Below are positions 34,032 through 44,098 of a stretch of DNA of 64,000 bases, piece after piece; positions within the stretch are counted from its first letter, which is position 1; each line of letters opens with the position of its first letter. The translations under genes and the position numbers were made by a program. The notes beneath the pieces were generated by a model, which made no database searches, was not told the origin of the DNA, and worked only from the letters and a program-made list of their open reading frames with translations. The stretch is from Bacilli bacterium (GTDB lineage: Bacteria > Bacillota_I > Bacilli_A > RFN20 > CAG-826), in the NCBI GenBank assembly GCA_017468925.1, contig JAFUHI010000009.1:462162-526161 (forward strand), read 5' to 3'.

Positions 34032-34859
34032 TTAGAATCCAGGTTTGCCCAATAGATGGAACATGTTTTTTTTGTATATTTCCACACCTGGTTGATCGAA
34101 TGGGTTAACTCCATTTAAATATGCAGAAACAGCGCAGGCTCTTTCAAAGAAATAGAAGAGGTAGCCAAGTCCTTTGGCGTCCATCTTATCTAATTCTAAA
34201 ATCACGTTGTCGTTGTTTCCGTCTTCTGTATGGGCTTGGACAGTTCCTTCTAGAGCTTTTTCATTGACGAATGATAAAGATTTCCCTTCTAAATAATTCA
34301 AACCATCAAGGTTTTCTTCATCGTGCGGTATGAATACATCGACATCGCATTCTTTAATTTTTAATGTTGTTTCAAAGAAACATTTTGTCCCTTCTTGGAT
34401 GAATTGGCCCAAGGAGTGGAGGTCGGTGCTGAAGGTGAGGGATACAGGGAATAAAGATTTCCCTTCTTTTCCTTCGCTTTCGCCGAATAATTGCTTGAAC
34501 CATTCGCCAAGCTGGGTAAGAGCAGGCTCATATGTTATAAACATTTCCATTTTCTTGCCGTTCTTGTATTCTTCATGCCTGATTATGGCGTATCTATAGC
34601 AATCATTTTCCTCTAGATTCTCTTTTGAGCATTCTTCTTTTCCTAGCCTATATCCTTCCATGAGCTTATCGATGTTAATGCCCGCAGCGGCGATTGGAAG
34701 AAGGCCAACAGCGGTGGTGACGCTATAGCGGCCGCCGATATTTGAAGGGAGGACAAATCTCTCGTATCCTTCTTTTTCCGATAATTCTAGCAGAGCGCCT
34801 TTTTCTTTATCTGTGGTGGCGAATATAGCTTCTTTTGCGTATTCTTTGCCATGCTCTTT
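34032..34859 (-). pseudogene. pgi: Glucose-6-phosphate isomerase, C-terminal part in shifted frame
   Basis: This frame is open from the frameshift point (34857-34860) to the stop and encodes EHGKEYAKEAIFATTDKEKGALLEL and onward. It contains both later GPI signatures, NIGGRYSVTTAVGLLPIAAAG and GYLFYFFERACAVSAYLNGVNPFDQPGVE. Joined to the upstream part it gives a full-length enzyme of about 430 residues. One A too few in a four-A run separates the two halves; no other damage is seen. So it is either a sequencing or assembly indel, a very recent mutation, or a minus-one frameshift signal. An ATG at 34661 exists but would drop essential residues. Confidence 0.85.
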
Positions 34860-35668
34860 TCCATCAATTCCTTTAATAATCTAAAGGAGATGCTGGTTTC
34901 GGTGGTGGTGCCAGATTTAGAGATGACATTGATGGAGAATCTTTTTCCTTTTAGGTGATTTAGAACCTGGTTTACATAGGAAGGGCTAAATGTTTGACCC
35001 ATATATATGATCTCTAATTTGTCGTTTGGATGGAGGCCTTTGATGGCTTCGATGGCTGCTCTAGCGCCTAGATATGAGCCACCGATTCCACATACTACTA
35101 ATATTTCGTAGTTTTCGCGGATTCTTCTTGCGGCGGCTTTGATTCTTTCGAATTCTTCCTTGTCATATGTATTTGGGTAATCCGCCCAACCTAAATAATC
35201 TGCGCCTTTTCCGGTTTTGTTTTCAATCCATTCGTGAATTGTGGCGATTTTTTCCTTATATGAATCGAAATCGATTTGGGTTTTAACGTTGTCGAGATTG
35301 AGTTTTATCATCTTGGTTCTCTCCTCTTTATTCTCTTCTTTTATCCAGCCTTCTAACCTTTCTTCAAGGGCTTTGAAAGAAATCTCTTCTTCTGGAATCT
35401 CCCCGTGGGTTGTCGCTTGTTTTCTTTCCTCTGGGGTTAATTGCTTGACACTGACTTTCATGCTTTGTTTCTCTTCATCGACCTCGATGACTTTTACTCG
35501 GTAGATGTTTCCGACTGCAACATAAGAAGTGAAATTCCTTATATATCCATCGGTTATCTCGCTTATATGCAATAGGCCAGTTGATCCGCTTTCGAAAAGC
35601 ATTATCGCGTAATTGGGATAAACCCTAACTACTGTTCCTTCAAGAATATCGCCAACTTTCTCTATCAT
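34787..35668 (-). CDS. S1-domain protein joined in frame to glucose-6-phosphate isomerase N-terminal part
   Basis: Residues 1-119 are a YugI/GSP13-type S1 RNA-binding protein (KVGDILEGTVVRVYPNYAIMLFESGSTGLLHISEIT), including its C-terminal LEERLEGWIKEEN helix. Residue 120 is the Met at which a normal GPI would begin (MIKLNLDNVK), followed by GPI landmarks ADYLGWADYP, CGIGGSYLGARAAIEA and SKSGTTTETSISFRLL. A strong GAGGAGAG lies seven bases before that Met codon (35309-35311), so GPI may start there separately. The last 15 residues or so are out of frame. The start overlaps the ispD stop (ATGA) and has AAAGGAG before it. GPI converts glucose-6-phosphate and fructose-6-phosphate in glycolysis. 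Confidence 0.85.
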   Translation of the reverse strand: MIEKVGDILEGTVVRVYPNYAIMLFESGSTGLLHISEITDGYIRNFTSYVAVGNIYRVKVIEVDEEKQSMKVSVKQLTPEERKQATTHGEIPEEEISFKALEERLEGWIKEENKEERTKMIKLNLDNVKTQIDFDSYKEKIATIHEWIENKTGKGADYLGWADYPNTYDKEEFERIKAAARRIRENYEILVVCGIGGSYLGARAAIEAIKGLHPNDKLEIIYMGQTFSPSYVNQVLNHLKGKRFSINVISKSGTTTETSISFRLLKELMEKSMAKNTQKKLYSPPQIKKKALC

Positions 35669-36426: not shown

Positions 36427-37266
36427 TTAATCGTTATTTGTTTCTTTGCTCTCTTTGGCGCCTAACTGCTCGTTGATGGCGATTGATTGAAGCAATAGAT
36501 GCATGACTAAATCAAGCTCTTTGCCTTCTCTATAGTCTGCTGGGCAGATATAGTTGACTCTGCCTTCTTCGAAAAGGCTTTGGACCTTGTCTTTCTTGCC
36601 TCTAGGGTAGACGGCGATTGATTTGCCTCCGTTGTTTTTGGCAAGAATCATTGCGGGTATATCGGTCATTCCATCACCGATGTAGATGATGTTTCTATAG
36701 GCGATTCTCTTCTCGCTTGATTTCTCATTTACGCCTTGATCGTCATTTGCATCATATGCGCCTTTGGCGATACGGAAGAAATATTGGGTCTTCTGGGTGT
36801 AATTGATAGCGAGTTTTGGCCATAGAGGTTCGCCTGTTTTTTCATCGAACAGGAATTCGCAGGCGTATATTTCTTTGAATTCTTTTGCGATGGCGCATCC
36901 ATCGACGATTTCCTTGTTGCCGCTGGAAATGAGATAATGCTCGATTTTAAGACCGAGTGAATCACCTAAGGCATTGACCCTAGAGAACCATTCCTCAACT
37001 CCTTGGAAGAATTTGATGTCTTTGCCTTGGTTTCTCAGCCATTCTCTTGTCATTGAGATGCCTTTTTCCTTGGCGATAACTGTCATCATGTATAAATACG
37101 AAAGAGTTCTTTCGGTTTGGGTTTTCTTTGAGAATTCGCTTGTAGCCGACCAGAATTCATCCGGCGTCATTCCCAAAGAAGGGATGAAGGAGAAGTTTTG
37201 CATGTCGCTTCTCGCTAGAGTTGAATCGAAATCGTATAGAATTGCGACGATTGGTTTTTTGTTCAT
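36427..37266 (-). CDS. HAD-family phosphatase
   Basis: The protein has 279 residues. The catalytic motif I DFDSTLA is at about 12-18 (YDFDSTLARSD), motif II is LISSGNKE, and motif III/IV is YIGDGMTDIPAM. This matches phosphoserine-phosphatase-like HAD enzymes with a helical cap. Substrate unknown. The ATG at 37266 is chosen because GAGGAGGT lies seven bases upstream; an upstream in-frame ATG would put the ribosome-binding site inside the gene. A promoter TTGACT-16-TAAAAT lies at 37291-37318. Confidence 0.84.
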   Translation of the reverse strand: MNKKPIVAILYDFDSTLARSDMQNFSFIPSLGMTPDEFWSATSEFSKKTQTERTLSYLYMMTVIAKEKGISMTREWLRNQGKDIKFFQGVEEWFSRVNALGDSLGLKIEHYLISSGNKEIVDGCAIAKEFKEIYACEFLFDEKTGEPLWPKLAINYTQKTQYFFRIAKGAYDANDDQGVNEKSSEKRIAYRNIIYIGDGMTDIPAMILAKNNGGKSIAVYPRGKKDKVQSLFEEGRVNYICPADYREGKELDLVMHLLLQSIAINEQLGAKESKETNND

Positions 37267-37290
37267 AGAAACTACCTCCTCGAACATTAT

Positions 37291-37318
37291 ATTTTATGGC
37301 ATATTTACAATTAGTCAA
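37291..37318 (-). promoter_or_regulatory. Promoter of the HAD phosphatase gene
   Basis: On the minus strand TTGACT (37313-37318) is followed after 16 bases by TAAAAT (37291-37296). The ribosome-binding site and ATG follow within 25 bases. Confidence 0.6.
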
Positions 37319-37332
37319 TTTTGTTAAAATAA

Positions 37333-37370
37333 CAAAAAAGAGCTGGTTTTTGGAACCAACTCATTTTTTG
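37333..37370 (-). terminator. Intrinsic terminator after the small membrane protein gene
   Basis: GAGCTGGTT (37340-37348) pairs with AACCAACTC (37354-37362), with a run of A on the left and of T on the right, so it can work on both strands. Confidence 0.82.
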
Positions 37371-37379
37371 AATTCTTAA

Positions 37380-37616
37380 TTAGGCTTTGAACCAGAAGAT
37401 TCTGTTGAAGAGGATGATCCAAATGATATCAAGAATCCATCCAACTGTTCCAGCGGCTAAAATCCAAAGGATGCCTAAGACAAGGTGAAGCACGTTCTTG
37501 TGGACAACGGCTTGACCAATACGATAGACAGCCCAGGTGATATCCAAGATCCAAATGCAAAGAATGATTTTGACTAATCTAGAATGACCTTCCATCCATT
37601 TCAAATAATTTGCCAT
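37380..37616 (-). CDS. Small membrane protein, paralogue of the neighbour
   Basis: A 78-residue protein with two predicted hydrophobic helices (VKIILCIWILDITWAVYRI and HLVLGILWILAAGTVGWILDIIWIILF). It starts MANYLKWMEGHSRLVKI, parallel to MAYKKFIEGLSKPAKI of the next gene upstream, so the two are duplicates. The ATG at 37616 has AAAGGAGA ahead. The pattern resembles TM2-like or inner-membrane proteins of unknown role. The gene has its own terminator. Confidence 0.78.
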   Translation of the reverse strand: MANYLKWMEGHSRLVKIILCIWILDITWAVYRIGQAVVHKNVLHLVLGILWILAAGTVGWILDIIWIILFNRIFWFKA

Positions 37617-37670
37617 ATTAATTCTCCTTTCGATTAAAACATACACCGATTTAAACAATAATCAAATAAA

Positions 37671-37698
37671 AAATAAAAACCCGTCTTAAAAGACGGGC
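37671..37698 (-). terminator. Intrinsic terminator
   Basis: CCCGTCTT and AAGACGGG (37680-37697) form a tight hairpin followed on the minus strand by TTTTTATTTTTTA. It ends the transcript of the gene at 37726-38055. Confidence 0.88.
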
Positions 37699-37725
37699 AA
37701 ATAAACTAGAATATGTCGAATTATT

Positions 37726-38055
37726 TTATTCTTTCTTTTCTTCGACTTCGACAACGTTTTCTTCTTTGGCTTCTTCTTTCTTCTCTTCTTCGAATTGGAT
37801 GCCACCATCATCTCCGAACCAAGCGGCAAAGGAGAAGACGGCATTGTTCTTGATGATTGAGATGATGTCGAAGATATAGAAGACGATGCCTAGAATGACA
37901 CCAAATACGCCATCCCATACGACCAATCCCCATTTTTTATCTAGGATGTCGCTTAGGATGCGATACACCAAGAACAATAGGCTGGTTGGAGGGATGATTG
38001 CCAAAACGATTTTGGCTGGTTTCGATAGACCTTCAATGAATTTTTTGTAAGCCAT
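37726..38055 (-). CDS. Small membrane protein with acidic C-terminal tail
   Basis: A 109-residue protein with two hydrophobic helices (AKIVLAIIPPTSLLFLVYRI and GLVVWDGVFGVILGIVFYIFDIISII) and a last 30 residues made mainly of E and K (EEEKKEEAKEENVVEVEEKKE). Its first half is related to the 78-residue protein downstream; the acidic tail is an addition. No function known. AAAGGAG lies before the ATG. Confidence 0.76.
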   Translation of the reverse strand: MAYKKFIEGLSKPAKIVLAIIPPTSLLFLVYRILSDILDKKWGLVVWDGVFGVILGIVFYIFDIISIIKNNAVFSFAAWFGDDGGIQFEEEKKEEAKEENVVEVEEKKE

Positions 38056-38139
38056 TTAATATGACTCCTTTCTAACTGCAATAATGTTATTATATGGCGA
38101 AAGAAAAATAAAGAGCCTTGGATTGTAATCTTTTTATTT

Positions 38140-38154
38140 TAAAATTATGTCATG
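38140..38154 (+). promoter_or_regulatory. -10 element six bases before the ATG of the LemA-like gene
   Basis: TAAAAT at 38140-38145, then TATGTC, then ATG at 38152. TTGGAT at 38118-38123 is a possible -35 with a 16-base spacer. No Shine-Dalgarno is seen. Confidence 0.55.
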
Positions 38155-38682
38155 GCGTTGCAGTGGTATCAGATATTAGTGTGGGTGGTTATCGTTATAG
38201 TTATTGCGTATATCGCTGGCTTCATTTTCGTATTCTCTAGGATGGTCGATTTCCGAGTAAAGATGAGGAAGGGCTTGATAGCCGCCTCAATCCTTTTTTC
38301 TGAGAAGAAAGAGGTTTTGATTAATTTTTATTCGTTATTCCTTGAAATGGGCGTGATTCTAAACGACAACGATGGGGATATGCTCACTAGGTTAAGATGG
38401 AAGAAGACCGATGTTAAAAAAGGAGCTTTAGCGCAGGAACTGAATGATATGCTTAACGAAGTAAGCAAAAGACTTTCATATATAGCGATGAGAGAGAAGT
38501 TGGAACAGGATCCTAAAATAATCTCTTATTTTGACACACTTAGTGATATCGATGTCTCTTATAGAAGGATAGTGGCAATATACAACAACAATTTGACCGC
38601 ATACGAATATTGGAGACAGAGAAAAATATATACTTGGGCGTTTTGGCTATTATTCTTTAGAAAACAAAGTCGCTTGTATTAA
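38152..38682 (+). CDS. LemA-like membrane protein
   Basis: A 176-residue protein with an N-terminal membrane helix (ILVWVVIVIVIAYIAGFIFVF) and a helical body. The part LSDIDVSYRRIVAIYNNNLTAYEYW resembles the conserved ARxxYNxxVxxYN region of LemA proteins, and the layout of TM followed by a helical bundle fits. The level of similarity is modest, so this is a tentative call. It converges with the ABC-F gene and their stop codons overlap by 4 bases. Confidence 0.55.
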   Translation: MALQWYQILVWVVIVIVIAYIAGFIFVFSRMVDFRVKMRKGLIAASILFSEKKEVLINFYSLFLEMGVILNDNDGDMLTRLRWKKTDVKKGALAQELNDMLNEVSKRLSYIAMREKLEQDPKIISYFDTLSDIDVSYRRIVAIYNNNLTAYEYWRQRKIYTWAFWLLFFRKQSRLY

Positions 38683-40211
38683 AAATGCAATTCGTAATCA
38701 ACTAGGCCATCATAGAAATCTTTTTCGTGGCTGATTAGAATGACCGCGCCCGGGAATCTTTCAATCGCATCGAATAAAGCGTCTTTTGCTTTTTGATCAA
38801 GGTGATTGGTAGGCTCATCCAACACCAAGAAATTGCTTTTCTTTCTGCACATTAATGCGAATCTGGTTTTGCTGATTTCGCCTCCCGACAACTCATTCAT
38901 TTTTCTTAAAGCCATTTCTTTCTTCACCCCGGTCGCGCCAAGCGCTTTTCTTATGTCGGTATTGCTCATCTCTGGATAATGTTGCCTGATATATTCAAAA
39001 GGTGTCAATGATAAATCGATTTTCTCGTCTTGATTGAAATAATTAATTTCTGTTCCTTTAAGCCATTCATAACTTCCGCCTAAAGAAGAAATGACACCTA
39101 GAATAGTTTTAACAAATGTAGTTTTTCCAACTCCATTTTGTCCAAGTATTGCAATCTTTTGACCTTTCATCAAAGTGAAAGAAATTGGATCTATTAAAGG
39201 ATATTCATAGCCGATTTGAAGCTCATTCACCTTTAATACTTCTTTTCCGACATCATGGGTAAATGGGAATGCAAAATATACTTTTCCATCCTCGTTTTGT
39301 GGGGATTCTAATCTATCTAAGTGTTCTAATCTCGCACGTCTTGATTTGGCTGCTTTGGAAGAAGTTGCTCTAACTATGTGTTTTGCGATGAATGTTTCTT
39401 CTTTCTTTATATATCTTTGCTGGGCGATATAATTCTTCATATATTGCTCTTTATCTAATTCATGCTGCTCCAGATAATGATCAAATGTCCCTTTGTATCT
39501 TGTGCATGTTTGGTTTTCTAAAACAAAAACCACATTTGCAATTTTTCTTAGGAATTCTTGGTCGTGAGAAACAATGAGAAACGCTTTTGGATAAGACACT
39601 AAATAATTTGTCAACCAATCAACTTGATTTGCATCTAAAAAATTAGTGGGCTCATCCATTATCAAGACATCTTTTTCTTCTAGTAGCATCTTTGCCAGAT
39701 ATGCCTTTTCTCTTTGACCGCTGGATAGTTGCTTTAATGGCGTCTCGAGCTGCTCTTTTAGAAATCCTAATCCATCCGTTAGCCTTCCAACTTTTTCTTG
39801 AAGAGAATAAAAAGAGGAATTCATAAGCTCATCGCCAAGCTTTTCCGCTTTGGAAAGGAGTTTTTCATAATCTCCTTCGCCGTTTGCGGCTTCTTCATAT
39901 AATTGCTCCATTCTCTTTTCTTTATCGAAAAGATCTTTATATACACCATATAGATATTCGGATACGGGCATATTCACTGCGACTTTCAGCTGCTGGTCCA
40001 AATATGAAAATGTTGTGCCAGGGGTCCAATATACTTTGCCTTTGTCTGGCTTGATTTCGCCGACAAGGATATTTAATAAAGTAGTTTTGCCAGAACCATT
40101 GATTCCGACCAAACAGCAATGCTCACCATTGTTTATCTTGAGGGTGATGCTTTTGTATAGTTCCTTGTCGCTGTAATTGAATTGTATATCCGATAATTCT
40201 ACTAATGCCAT
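38679..40211 (-). CDS. ABC-F family ATPase
   Basis: A 510-residue protein with two ABC domains and no membrane helices. Walker A motifs: GINGSGKTT near 37-45 and GQNGVGKTT near 350. Signatures: LSSGQREKAYLAK and LSGGEISKTRFAL; Walker B: VLIMDEPTNFLD and FLVLDEPTNHLD. The linker between domains (QYMKNYIAQQRYIKKEETFI...SSKAAKSRRARLEHL) is the P-site tRNA interaction motif region of ABC-F proteins. They act on ribosomes, either in translation or in antibiotic protection; which one cannot be told here. The start is 1 base after the upstream HTH gene, so translation is coupled. Confidence 0.92.
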   Translation of the reverse strand: MALVELSDIQFNYSDKELYKSITLKINNGEHCCLVGINGSGKTTLLNILVGEIKPDKGKVYWTPGTTFSYLDQQLKVAVNMPVSEYLYGVYKDLFDKEKRMEQLYEEAANGEGDYEKLLSKAEKLGDELMNSSFYSLQEKVGRLTDGLGFLKEQLETPLKQLSSGQREKAYLAKMLLEEKDVLIMDEPTNFLDANQVDWLTNYLVSYPKAFLIVSHDQEFLRKIANVVFVLENQTCTRYKGTFDHYLEQHELDKEQYMKNYIAQQRYIKKEETFIAKHIVRATSSKAAKSRRARLEHLDRLESPQNEDGKVYFAFPFTHDVGKEVLKVNELQIGYEYPLIDPISFTLMKGQKIAILGQNGVGKTTFVKTILGVISSLGGSYEWLKGTEINYFNQDEKIDLSLTPFEYIRQHYPEMSNTDIRKALGATGVKKEMALRKMNELSGGEISKTRFALMCRKKSNFLVLDEPTNHLDQKAKDALFDAIERFPGAVILISHEKDFYDGLVDYELHF

Positions 40212-40212
40212 T

Positions 40213-40716
40213 TTATTTGATATATAAGGGGATGGAGTTTTTTCTTATTTCTCTATCCTTTTTTGAATTAAGAATTAATTTGCTTTTGTCGACTACTTCA
40301 ACCTTTTTATGCAAAAGCGTCTTAAGTTGTGAGGCAAGGCCATAGAACTTCATTCCCGTAAGATTGCATTTGATTAGTAATGATATTTGAGAAGAAGCGG
40401 TGGCCTTCCCTTCGGCGTATTCGCCAAACAAATATACTTCATCTAAGTTCTTTTCTATGCAAAACGCGGTTATTTTATGTTTCAATTCAGAGAATAGATA
40501 AACACCTTTTGTCTCATTGTATTTGAAAGTGGTTTCCCTTTCGTAGTCAGAAAGCTTGTCTATTATAAGATCCAAAGTCCATTCATTCGGCTCTCTTAAC
40601 CCCTGCTCCCAGTTGCATAATGTGGTTTTCGGAATGCCTAGATATGTGCAAAACTGCTCCTGGGTTAACCCTGCATTTTTCCTAAGTTTTTTGATGATGC
40701 TTTCTTTTTTGGCCAT
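40213..40716 (-). CDS. XRE-type HTH protein with degenerate MNT-like nucleotidyltransferase domain
   Basis: The 167-residue protein starts with an XRE helix-turn-helix (IKKLRKNAGLTQEQFCTYLGIPKTTLCNWEQGLREPNE). The C-terminal half has the layout of a minimal nucleotidyltransferase: VYLFGEYAEGKATASSQISLLI...KFYGLASQLKTLLHKKVEVVD. In active members the motif is GSYARG...SDIDL; here the Ser is Glu and the DxD is QIS, so metal binding should be lost. It probably works as a DNA-binding regulator, perhaps of the ABC-F gene that follows 1 base downstream. An inverted repeat in its promoter may be its operator. Confidence 0.75.
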   Translation of the reverse strand: MAKKESIIKKLRKNAGLTQEQFCTYLGIPKTTLCNWEQGLREPNEWTLDLIIDKLSDYERETTFKYNETKGVYLFSELKHKITAFCIEKNLDEVYLFGEYAEGKATASSQISLLIKCNLTGMKFYGLASQLKTLLHKKVEVVDKSKLILNSKKDREIRKNSIPLYIK

Positions 40717-40725
40717 GTTAAAAGT

Positions 40726-40746
40726 TTATACTTCATTGGGGTATAA
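40726..40746. promoter_or_regulatory. Candidate operator of the HTH/ABC-F pair
   Basis: TTATAC (40726-40731) and GTATAA (40741-40746) are perfect inverted repeats with a 9-base spacer. They lie just upstream of the HTH gene start, and on the minus strand a TATAAA that partly overlaps the inner arm ends eight bases before the ATG, so the site would cover the -10. Confidence 0.5.
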
Positions 40747-40761
40747 GAAAAGAATAATCAA

Positions 40762-42645
40762 TTATTTTAGAGCAAAACCATCTTCAGGCACGTATAGCTT
40801 GAATTTTGGCAGCTTATATACTGAGAAGGAATATGGTATTTGAATGGTTATATAGTCCTCAAATCCTGCGATTTTCGCATAGACGATGTTGGTGTTGTTT
40901 GATGGATCTTCATCATAGCAAGAGGCGGATAGACATTGATTCTTTGGGGCGATGGTTTCTGGTAGATTAAGCTTTTTTGCTTTTTTCCTCTCATAAACCG
41001 GATGGCATTTATCTTGCTTTAATTCAAAATCATATTCTCCATCTTCATATGGAAGAGATTCGTAAACAAGTTTCTCTCCTCCTGAAATGGAGATTATTCT
41101 CTTTCCGTCTTTCTTGGTGCTTAATTTCGCTTTGGCGACATTCTTATATATTCTTTCTTTTGAGAATAACGAATCGCCATTATCGTCGATTATTCTTATT
41201 TTATCGATTGGGAGATATATCGTCATCGCATCTTTGTTTTTGATGTCATTCCCTTTTGGGGCTCTAAAAACGATATATTCTTTCTCATCGCCGATAATTG
41301 CATAGATGATGTCATAATTCGTTCTTTCCTCCTTGAAATCAACGGTTATGTTGATAGGAATATTATCCTCATTTCCTTTTAACTCTATGGCCTCTGGCTT
41401 GATTGCAAAAAACGCTTTTCCTTCTTTGGCTCTGTCTAATAAATGCATAAAGAATTCATCGTTCATATCGATTGAGCTGCCTTTATCAAATATGAGTTTG
41501 CCTTCATTAAAAGAGCAGGGGATCTTGTTTAGTGAAGGAAGGCCGATTAGAGAATGCTCGGTTTCTTTGTCAAATAGATAGATTTTGTCTCTATTGATTT
41601 CTATTTTGACGTCATCTCCAGATTTGACCCCAATGGTGAGAGGAGCTTTCAAGGTGATATTACCTTTGTGGGAGGCGATTGATACATATATTAACGTCTC
41701 ATCGCCAAGTTGTTCTACTGCCTCAACGTGAGCGGGGATGCCTTCCTTGCTTAACTTAATTTGGTCTGGCCTTATGCCAAGTAGATATTCTTTCTCCAAA
41801 GGCAATGATGAATGTTCTATTTGTTTAACCGCCCTTTCATTTAATTCAATGAAGTTTTCCTCGATATTTTCCAATAAGAAGCGGGTTTTGCCGCTGTTTT
41901 TGATGATTTTTCCGCTTATTATATTCATCTGCGGAGAACCTAAGAAAGTGGCAACGAATAGGTTTGAAGGATCCTCGAACAAAGTGACTGGTGCGTCCGC
42001 TTGCTGGACGAATCCTTTATTCATGACCACGATCACATCGCCCATTGTCATGGCCTCTGTCTGGTCGTGAGTGACATATATGAAAGTTGTTTGTAGTTTC
42101 TCATGCAGCTTTGTTATCTCGGTTCTCATCTGCACACGGAGTTTCGCATCAAGGTTGCTTAATGGCTCATCGAGCAAGAATATATTTGGCTCTCTAACTA
42201 TGGCTCTTCCTAAGGCGACACGTTGTCTTTGCCCGCCCGATAATTCCTTAGGCTTGCGATCCAATAAATCTGTAATTTCAAGGATTTCCGCGGCCTTCAA
42301 GACTTTCTCTTTTATGACATCGGCTTTTTGGTGTCTTAGTTTTAATCCGAATCCCATATTTTGGTACACAGTCATGTGAGGGTATAAAGCATAGCTTTGA
42401 AATACCATCGCGATATCCCTATCCTTGCTTTCTAAATCATTGACGCAGACATTATCGATATAGAGTTGGCCCGCTGTAATGGATTCTAGGCCTGCAATCA
42501 TTCTTAAAGTAGTCGATTTTCCACATCCTGAAGGACCGACTAAGACGACGAATGATTTGTCTTTGATCGTCAAATCGAAATCATTGACGGCGCGTACCCC
42601 TCCTTGATAGACCTTGTAAATGTGATTAAGACGTAGAACAGCCAT
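40762..42645 (-). CDS. MsmX/UgpC-like sugar ABC transporter ATPase with long C-terminal extension
   Basis: A 627-residue protein. The N-terminal 240 residues are a CUT1-type ATPase: Walker A GPSGCGKST near 37-45, signature LSGGQRQR, Walker B FLLDEPLSNLDA and THDQTEAMT. The next 130 residues form the regulatory TOBE-type barrel (FLGSPQMNIISG, GIRPDQIKLS). Then come about 250 residues that MsmX-type proteins (usually 360-380) lack; they repeat the phrase FAIKPEAIEL, so they look like a second regulatory barrel, followed by another beta-rich domain. As both sugar importers in the window lack an ATPase, it probably serves both. AAAGGAGG before the ATG; last gene of the mannan-like operon. Confidence 0.9.
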   Translation of the reverse strand: MAVLRLNHIYKVYQGGVRAVNDFDLTIKDKSFVVLVGPSGCGKSTTLRMIAGLESITAGQLYIDNVCVNDLESKDRDIAMVFQSYALYPHMTVYQNMGFGLKLRHQKADVIKEKVLKAAEILEITDLLDRKPKELSGGQRQRVALGRAIVREPNIFLLDEPLSNLDAKLRVQMRTEITKLHEKLQTTFIYVTHDQTEAMTMGDVIVVMNKGFVQQADAPVTLFEDPSNLFVATFLGSPQMNIISGKIIKNSGKTRFLLENIEENFIELNERAVKQIEHSSLPLEKEYLLGIRPDQIKLSKEGIPAHVEAVEQLGDETLIYVSIASHKGNITLKAPLTIGVKSGDDVKIEINRDKIYLFDKETEHSLIGLPSLNKIPCSFNEGKLIFDKGSSIDMNDEFFMHLLDRAKEGKAFFAIKPEAIELKGNEDNIPINITVDFKEERTNYDIIYAIIGDEKEYIVFRAPKGNDIKNKDAMTIYLPIDKIRIIDDNGDSLFSKERIYKNVAKAKLSTKKDGKRIISISGGEKLVYESLPYEDGEYDFELKQDKCHPVYERKKAKKLNLPETIAPKNQCLSASCYDEDPSNNTNIVYAKIAGFEDYITIQIPYSFSVYKLPKFKLYVPEDGFALK

Positions 42646-42647
42646 AA

Positions 42648-43481
42648 TTATGCCTCCTTTTCTTTCCTTAATCCCTTCCTGTAATATTCTGGGAAATTAT
42701 CTTTGTTGATATATTTATCAAACGTGGATAAGGCGTTTAAATACCAAATTAGATGGGCAAACGACGAGAAGATGATGCCTAAAACAATCCCAACATACAT
42801 CGTTATGCTCATTATCGAAACTAAAGCGATGAATATCCCTGGGCAAACGATGAAGAAGAGGAGGTTGATAGGGAATTTCATCAAAGAGAAATACAAAGAA
42901 TTCTTTATGTTAGAAATGAAAGAATTGGAATAAATCATGCTTTCGGATAACGAATAATATGACATCATTATCACCACGATTAATTGAATCAAAAGCAATG
43001 ATATACCCAATGCGCTTATCCAGCCATCGGCGATTGCGTTATTAGCGAAAAGATAAGATGAGCCAATTAAAGTCGCTGCTGCGCTTATTGAAACGATTAA
43101 ACCAATCCTTAAGCCCGTTTTCCATTCTTCTTTGAAACCGATGAAGAATGAGGAAGAAACGAATTCACCTTCTAAGAACGAAAGCTTTCTAAAACAATAG
43201 AACATCCCGCTTAACCCTAAATAAATAAGAGGGATGGTCAAAACGAAAGAAGAGGCTGTGAACAGCGAGACGGTAAAGAATGAATTAAAATCGCTTGCCT
43301 TCTCCGAGAACATGTAGAAGAGAATAAGACTCGCGTAGAACGGCAAAGAGAAAATGGTTTGCAATAAGGATATTTTTAGCAAATCCAAAAAGCGATGACG
43401 GAAAAAATCCAAGAATTGGCCTCTTCTGGTAGAAGGCCTGTTTTCTTCCAAGAATTCTTTATCTTCCCTTGTATTCTTCAT
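42648..43481 (-). CDS. YesL/DUF624-like membrane protein
   Basis: A 277-residue protein with five to six predicted helices. The N-terminal LLKISLLQTIFSLPFY and LTIPLIYLGLSGMFYCFRKL fit the YesL (DUF624) pattern, and such proteins are regularly coded with LplB/LplC-type sugar importers, as here. The similarity is moderate. Function unknown, perhaps assembly or regulation of the transporter. It ends 2 bases before the ATPase gene and overlaps the gene upstream. Confidence 0.68.
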   Translation of the reverse strand: MKNTREDKEFLEENRPSTRRGQFLDFFRHRFLDLLKISLLQTIFSLPFYASLILFYMFSEKASDFNSFFTVSLFTASSFVLTIPLIYLGLSGMFYCFRKLSFLEGEFVSSSFFIGFKEEWKTGLRIGLIVSISAAATLIGSSYLFANNAIADGWISALGISLLLIQLIVVIMMSYYSLSESMIYSNSFISNIKNSLYFSLMKFPINLLFFIVCPGIFIALVSIMSITMYVGIVLGIIFSSFAHLIWYLNALSTFDKYINKDNFPEYYRKGLRKEKEA

Positions 43482-44098
43482 TCGCCTTTCTCCAATATGC
43501 CTAAAACTTTTAAAGCGTTATCGAATTTCGCATTATTTTCATCCAGAACGTCGCCTAGGTTTTTGCTTGATCTAGATAAGGCGACGTAATACGAATCATC
43601 ATCGAATGTCATGTATTCATCAAGCCAGCACGCTTCGCCTTTTTCTTTTATTTCTAAACCGTAGTTTTTACTTTCAACAGTGAAAAACGATGGGGATTCG
43701 CTTAGATATTTTTCTATTATCGAATCATTTATCTCAACGACTATCTTATCCAAATCGTTTCCAAATTCCTTCATTATTCTCTCTGGTAGAACTAGCAAAT
43801 CGCTGTTGGCGAGCCTCATATTGAGGACGGTGTAATAATCCTTAACCTGTGGCCAGCAGGAATATGTGTTCAATTCTCTAAGATCCTCTTTGGAGAAATT
43901 TGTTTCGATGGTTTTCTTGAACGAATCATCGTTTATGTTTGTCGAGAAGAAGATGTTTATTATTTGGTGGTCGCTAGGCAAATGAATCGCCTGATATCCC
44001 CACACCCAAAGCAAGGAGATGACTGCTGCGGCGACCGGATAGATGTACCAGGTGTGCGAGAAGGTGTTTTTGACTGATTGCCTATCAATTATTTTCAC
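43478..44098 (-). CDS. Single-pass membrane protein, function unknown
   Basis: About 206 residues. After a short basic start there is one membrane helix (WYIYPVAAAVISLLWVWGYQAI), then an outer domain of about 165 residues with IINIFFSTNIND, YTVLNMRLANSDLLVLPERIM and SYYVALSRSSKNLG. The order (strand with Asn-rich loop, helix, short strand with the phrase DLLVLPE) recalls one lobe of a solute-binding protein, but I cannot support a family. The GTG at 44098 is chosen because GAGGTG lies seven bases upstream; an in-frame TTG at 44113 would be earlier. It overlaps the preceding gene. Confidence 0.65.
   Translation of the reverse strand: MKIIDRQSVKNTFSHTWYIYPVAAAVISLLWVWGYQAIHLPSDHQIINIFFSTNINDDSFKKTIETNFSKEDLRELNTYSCWPQVKDYYTVLNMRLANSDLLVLPERIMKEFGNDLDKIVVEINDSIIEKYLSESPSFFTVESKNYGLEIKEKGEACWLDEYMTFDDDSYYVALSRSSKNLGDVLDENNAKFDNALKVLGILEKGE

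Follow-up and report, generated by a model that had tools for sequence, protein, structure and literature searches.

In the window (the whole 64,000-nucleotide stretch of Bacilli DNA that was analysed), a gene for a helix-turn-helix (HTH) protein with an MNT nucleotidyltransferase fold lies between genes for a MalK-type ABC transporter ATPase and an ABC-F ATPase (Table 1). In the AlphaFold2 model of this HTH-MNT protein (mean pLDDT 90.6), the N-terminal residues 5–65 match the XRE structure 2ppx (Z 9.6), and residues 71–167 fit MNT antitoxins best (8xeo, Z 13.2; 7bxo, MntA with AMP-PNP, Z 11.5). Aminoglycoside nucleotidyltransferases resemble the same fold at Z 7–8, and profile matches to the MNT structures 8xeh, 8xeo and 5yep were also obtained. 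The Pfam Polbeta NTase match (residues 81–165; 1.5e-5, 25.5 bits) falls slightly below the gathering score of 26.9, and the NCBIfam cut-off for MntA (NF047752) is not reached (25.2 vs 60 bits). The HTH, described as intact in an earlier note on this DNA, is indeed so by both its Pfam HTH_3 match and the 2ppx fold match; its recognition region, PKTTLCNWEQGLREPNEW, is of the R41/P43 type common to the operator clade described below.

Table 1. Position and basis of the features at the HTH-MNT locus (window coordinates)
Feature	Position	Strand	Basis or remark
ABC-F ATPase (510 aa), encoded by a core gene in this genus	38679..40211	-	one base separates it from the HTH-MNT stop codon
HTH-MNT protein (167 aa), an orphan without the core catalytic residues	40213..40716	-	intact ORF; AlphaFold2 model
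MNT nucleotidyltransferase fold, residues 71–167	40216..40506	-	structure matches 8xeo, 7bxo
Degenerate catalytic motif, residues 98–112, GE...QIS replacing GS...DxD	40381..40425	-	alignment with relatives
XRE helix-turn-helix, residues 8–53	40558..40695	-	PF01381 (Pfam HTH_3), 9.5e-9
-10-like TAAACT (4/6), in register of clade promoters	40723..40728	-	inferred from layout
TTATAC-N9-GTATAA, 21 bp around the operator	40726..40746	.	read from sequence
15-bp odd palindromic operator TACCCCAATGAAGTA	40729..40743	-	13/15 to consensus TACCCCAWTGGGGTA; predicted
-35-like TTTTCT (3/6), weak	40746..40751	-	inferred from layout
MalK-type ABC transporter ATPase (TOBE, OB_MalK)	40762..42645	-	neighbouring gene outside the unit, 45 bp from the HTH-MNT start on the upstream side

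The best relative found is 42% identical to the window protein, whose gene is known from one genome and sits on a long branch of the family tree (1.05 vs a median of 0.34). A search of a plasmid collection with the window protein gave no match. The sole match in the phage collection was an unannotated human faecal phage record (MT836394.1:9486-9944) with an HTH-MNT relative, 30% identical over 95%; because of this record, the HTH-MNT module may travel on phages.

The HTH-MNT family and its HepT partners

The window protein matches in 73 of the 279 genomes of the order at E<=1e-15, and a 19-row profile (A1) matches 159 of the 279 at E<=1e-12, the weaker profile matches probably being MNT or HTH domains alone. 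The family set comprised 147 unique full-length proteins covering both domains, among the matches listed (to E ~1e-43), so defined that more degenerate members may be missing from it. Among these listed matches, the core catalytic residues S/D/D are intact in 137 proteins, with a HEPN gene adjoining in 94, none in 36 and a contig end in 7; intact members lacking HEPN are thus common (36 of the 130 not at contig ends). The HEPN gene usually overlaps the HTH-MNT gene by 8 or 11 bases, and the RX4HXY motif is present in all 80 HEPN partners of at least 95 aa, the other 14 being shorter ORFs. The arrangement corresponds to the type VII HepT/MntA system, its antitoxin here carrying a fused XRE domain.

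At least one core residue has been lost in 10 of the 147 proteins, and the profile detected HEPN beside none of the ten among the matches listed (Fisher 7e-6, with cut contigs left out; a rough number, as the rows are related). After one of these, L204, comes a 72-aa ORF which, judged by eye, resembles a broken HEPN start; so does the ORF that follows L082, a member with no detected HEPN. At the class level, locus L368 runs against the pattern, its protein carrying D112N and its gene nevertheless having a HEPN neighbour.

The window protein belongs to the degenerate minority. Where relatives read GSYAKG...SDVD, it reads GEYAEGKATASSQIS: all three core residues are replaced (S99E, D110Q, D112S), and the GSX10DXD motif of the MntA type is absent from the protein, GEX10QXS standing in its place. 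The earlier claim that the Ser and the metal-binding Asp pair are lost is therefore borne out: S, D and D have become E, Q and S. The conserved non-catalytic positions of the nucleotidyltransferase (NTase) are kept at 21 of 30 (70%), the same level as in the closest intact relative, its sister L033, whereas 0 of 4 catalytic positions are kept, the fourth being the third acidic residue. The change at that residue (D to E at 140) was dropped as a sign of inactivity; HEPN-paired members of the clade have E, G or Q there. According to the available text of PMC7641770, GSX10DXD is required for AMPylation of HepT by MntA. Adenylylation of HepT by the window protein is predicted to be absent, because replacement of GS by AT, or of DxD by ExE, is already sufficient to abolish the reaction in the part of that study at hand (PMC7641770).

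No HepT (HEPN) gene was found next to the window gene: in a six-frame scan of positions 37001–44000, the HEPN profile gave nothing better than E 0.19. Judged from its sequence, the window gene is an orphan of the HTH-MNT antitoxin family. It shares the loss of at least three of the four tabulated positions with three other members: L044 (G000:C9), from the same genome, L081 and L236. Four separate changes are needed on the tree to account for these four dead members, with L081 on a long, unsure branch.

The second orphan of the window's genome (G000:C9:30549-31010; L044:6541-7014, plus strand) reads GEYAKN...SSTIT, with catalytic residues lost, and its Ser-to-Glu change appears independent on the tree. 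A 20-base gap separates it from a gene for a DUF2188 protein, and a perfect 7-bp inverted repeat, TATTTGC-N8-GCAAATA, lies upstream. The two remaining dead HTH-MNT orphans (L081:1468-1983 and L236:1294-1776) come from other genera; L081 retains the clade operator, TCACCCAATGAGTGA, and is followed by a gene for a 188-aa protein without a Pfam match. The window's own genome also carries an intact pair (G000:C7:175587-175865, L134), composed of a 151-aa MNT protein with GSYARG...SDVD and a HepT with RDWVAHGY.

A predicted operator within the promoter spacer

A perfect inverted repeat, TTATAC-N9-GTATAA, had been noted over the promoter of the window gene. It is present, although as a bare 6+6 repeat it does not exceed chance: when the 100 bp upstream were shuffled 1000 times, 37% of the shuffles contained an arm of at least 6. 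Across the family, upstream palindromes are barely longer than those of other genes (mean 6.04 vs 5.76, p 0.001), and arms of at least 7 occur in 23% of the family vs 26% of other genes. What makes the window repeat significant is the conservation of its core among relatives: the conserved operator core, TACCCCA-W-TGGGGTA, falls within what had been taken as the N9 spacer of the TTATAC repeat, the repeat arms being the outer part.

This conservation follows the HTH. The HTH residues R41 and P43 are common to seven members, which form a clade with 98% SH-aLRT support. CCAWTG or CAWTGG occurs in the same 35-bp upstream interval in 6 of the 6 R41/P43-type members with upstream DNA vs 1 of 140 others, these counts being drawn from the 147-protein order set, among the matches listed. 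With a leave-one-out matrix built on the six sites, the window site ranks first in the 64 kb; the other five rank 1, 2, 1, 6 and 1, where rank 2 is L085, behind its own tandem copy, and rank 6 is L086. Tandem copies of the operator were also seen in L349 and L356.

A class-level search of 395 genomes with a subfamily profile listed 89 places, from which 29 loci were fetched. One of them (L341) is identical to L086 and was not counted, six (L362–L367) have a different HTH type and served as negatives, and the remaining 22 are new R41/P43-type members, a held-out set that contains near-copies (L353–L355). With the six-site matrix, the upstream site is the best of the whole locus in 19 of the 22 held-out loci; the exceptions, L357, L361 and L368, rank 10, 4 and 15. 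The CAWTG core is kept in 21 of the 22, L368 being without it, and the exact operator in 5 of the 22. The six loci of the other HTH type have no such site (ranks 5–47). The half-site also varies with HTH type: TLRNWEQ goes mostly with TACCCCA and TIENWES with CCACYCA, from which L368, also TIENWES, is off by one base. Such a link would be expected if the HTH reads the site, and relatedness may explain part of it.

In the window's own genome, the operator is the sole site at up to 2 mismatches, and no regulon was seen elsewhere in that genome: 25 further sites at 3 mismatches compare with 41 control hits. Exact TAYCCCAWTGRGGTA sites number six in the 279 genomes; those in G057, G275 and G277 precede HTH-MNT genes, and the other three lie inside other ORFs. 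The site in G057 lies before the likely HTH-MNT start, though within the longest ORF.

In the same HTH clade, the operator typically occupies the 17-bp promoter spacer. In 11 of the 22 held-out loci it lies exactly between the -35 and -10 hexamers, both perfect (TTGACA and TATAAT) and 17 bp apart, and L085 and L088 of the order set have the same perfect-promoter layout. The corresponding promoter of the window gene, TTTTCT-17-TAAACT, scores 7/12, the lowest of 23 scored, vs 12/12 in many paired relatives, and its operator is symmetrical at 5 of 7 pairs vs 6–7 of 7 in many of these. TATAAA overlaps the -10-like hexamer at 40725–40730. By eye, no Shine-Dalgarno-like sequence precedes the HTH-MNT gene; one is found in 22 of the 43 long ATG-start ORFs of the window vs 4 of 43 at a control position.

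The ABC-F gene downstream

As reported earlier, the HTH-MNT gene ends one base before the ABC-F gene (the gap is position 40212, the ABC-F ATG being at 40211). ABC-F was detected in 35 of the 37 genomes of the genus at E<=1e-100, and in many of these loci its neighbours are a gene for a putative phosphatase, which we take from its motif to be of the HAD type, and a gene for a protein of about 175 aa without a Pfam family. By sequence, the ABC-F protein is nearest to YheS and YbiT among solved structures, and it does not reach the NCBIfam cut-off for ribosomal protection ABC-F (NF000355; 350.5 vs 380 bits). The nearest records are from uncultured Bacilli/Erysipelotrichaceae and Candidatus Alloenteromonas MAGs.

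An HTH-MNT gene before ABC-F was found in 0 of 29 other loci of the genus (one, L121, begins inside the gene) and in 0 of 79 loci from named genomes, a set that overlaps the first, includes several loci beginning inside the gene and spans 26–77% identity to the window ABC-F. The specific link to ABC-F that had been proposed thus finds no support in these loci, and relatives of the HTH-MNT protein instead have intact catalytic residues and an adjoining HepT toxin, the very outcome that the earlier note had named as refuting its proposal. ABC-F was accordingly rejected as a conserved partner. XRE-type HTH genes do occur near ABC-F in L275 (opposite strand) and L317 (downstream), neither of them HTH-MNT.

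A -10-like hexamer starting 12–18 bases before the ATG, with a score of at least 5/6, was found at 31 of 49 ABC-F starts of relatives vs 6% of 392 shifted controls, and Shine-Dalgarno sequences are nearly absent there (1 of 47). The window ABC-F has TATATA (4/6) at the same place, inside the last HTH-MNT codons; a score as low or lower is seen at 5 of the 49 starts, the window included, and 34% of control positions reach 4/6. The window ABC-F may thus be transcribed independently of the HTH-MNT promoter.

As a side observation, the ABC-F genes of the genus (L104–L133, L261–L314) look leaderless because of this combination of a start-proximal -10-like hexamer and near absence of Shine-Dalgarno sequences. 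A start-proximal -10 also occurs in 9 of the 43 long ATG-start ORFs of the window vs 2 of 43 at the control position.

An orphaned antitoxin as a candidate autorepressor

Family membership, the orphan state, the core catalytic loss and the retention of fold, HTH and operator can all be read directly from the DNA and its translation. We consider it somewhat more likely than not that the window gene descends from a type VII antitoxin that was orphaned, having lost toxin and catalysis, and was exapted as an autorepressor. An HTH-MNT/HepT antitoxin gene would have lost its toxin and its adenylyltransferase site, and an insertion would have placed it before ABC-F, whose control would then be owed to the chance of insertion. 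The protein would bind the 15-bp operator between -35 and -10 and repress its own promoter, in the manner expected of paired members, and the NTase fold would serve on as a scaffold for dimerisation or as the structural body. Transcription from the HTH-MNT promoter would continue into ABC-F, which would be at least partly under the autorepressor in one species. The pairing with ABC-F is not an old system. Of the earlier overall reading, a dead NTase, an intact HTH and a repeat within a conserved operator stand, and the specific tie to ABC-F does not.

The main rival to the autorepressor reading is that the gene is a decaying remnant, a drifting antitoxin that lost its toxin, has no function and no control over ABC-F, and whose ORF is open by chance or youth. 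We regard decay as rather improbable, though it deserves serious weight. Its occurrence in a single genome on a long branch, the weakness of its promoter and operator beside those of many paired relatives, the frequency of intact orphans without detected HEPN and the broken-looking HEPN starts after L082 and the core-lost L204 are all consistent with decay. However, the ORF is full-length, exactly the core catalytic positions are gone while the non-catalytic ones stay at the level of an intact relative, the operator remains the best match in 64 kb, and three other deep-dead full-length copies occur elsewhere on the tree.

It had also been suggested that the dead fold became a sensor for a nucleotide or antibiotic and controls an ABC-F ribosome-protection factor. 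Adjacency to ABC-F, the HTH, the operator and the likeness to aminoglycoside nucleotidyltransferases fit such a sensor, which we nevertheless judge very unlikely: the phosphate- and metal-binding residues are lost, the ABC-F gene belongs to the conserved core, its product scores under the ribosomal-protection cut-off and is nearest YheS/YbiT, and the linkage was seen in the window genome alone. A nucleotide sensor in particular is improbable because the GS Ser is now Glu and both Mg-binding DxD Asp residues are gone; in MntA, it is these that make contact with AMP-PNP or Mg, according to the text available from PMC7641770.

Least probable of all by a small margin, and likewise very unlikely, is a pseudo-antitoxin that binds HepT in trans, for example that of the genome's one intact MNT–HepT pair, as a decoy or co-repressor; MntA does bind HepT, and the non-modifying MntA(D39E,D41E) still builds a hetero-octamer with it in the accessible part of PMC7641770, but neutralisation requires the catalytic motif, and no XRE HTH can be recognised, by reading, among the 151 aa of that pair's MNT protein.

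Among known systems, XRE autorepressor antitoxins such as HipB, HigA, MqsA and PezA have palindromic operators over the promoter. The window protein shares their XRE HTH by profile and fold matches; it differs in that its C-terminal part is a dead nucleotidyltransferase and no toxin gene is present. With MntA (S. oneidensis SO_3165; PDB 5yep, 7bxo) it shares the MNT fold, and its family shares the HepT partner with RX4HXY and the antitoxin gene in first place, whereas the window protein has neither GSX10DXD nor HepT and carries an N-terminal XRE HTH that SO_3165 lacks. In the available portions of PMC7641770 and PMC4621449, the MNT antitoxin of the Shewanella system is described as without a DNA-binding domain; this antitoxin, devoid of an HTH, represses its own promoter, as far as the latter source goes (PMC4621449). 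The Xre-MNT module of Streptococcus suis likewise combines Xre and MNT, with Xre autorepression extending to downstream genes, but there, in the excerpted report, they are two separate proteins and MNT is the toxin (PMC8406773), whereas the window protein is a fusion of the HepT family. Solo antitoxins, toxin-less homologues, have been proposed to regulate other operons in the consulted part of PMC2701414, which differs in viewing MNT as a likely toxin, and an MNT solo antitoxin gene is mentioned for Geobacillus in the section seen of PMC6929052. The available text of these two papers describes neither an XRE fusion nor a dead MNT, and that of PMC3710099, PMC11586414 and PMC7157771 describes no XRE-MNT fusion. 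In the open-access literature, as far as its text was available, no description was found of an XRE-MNT fused antitoxin with HepT, of its operator or of recurrent dead orphans.

Many HepT-adjoining MNT antitoxins in these Bacilli bear their own XRE DNA-binding domain. The predicted operator of the R41/P43 clade is a 15-bp palindrome that occupies the -35/-10 spacer, with a half-site that varies with the recognition helix. This one operator-sharing clade contains three stages (intact with a toxin partner, intact but orphaned, orphaned and dead), which trace how an enzyme-antitoxin may turn into an ordinary gene regulator. More tentatively, and as a possibility that we hold to be short of probable, HTH-fused type VII antitoxins could have been repeatedly stripped of toxin and catalysis to leave pure transcription factors with the ancestral operator retained, one of which would have captured a core ABC-F translation factor as a new target, in place of the toxin as the operon's second gene.

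Elsewhere in the window, a glucose-6-phosphate isomerase looks split (34032–35668, minus strand; gene names by eye). An in-frame fusion joins its N-terminal part to an S1-like ORF (34787–35668), and its C-terminal part is a separate ORF (34032–34661), while relative L036 has a 428-aa isomerase gene and a separate 119-aa S1-like protein; the split is either an assembly frameshift or real.
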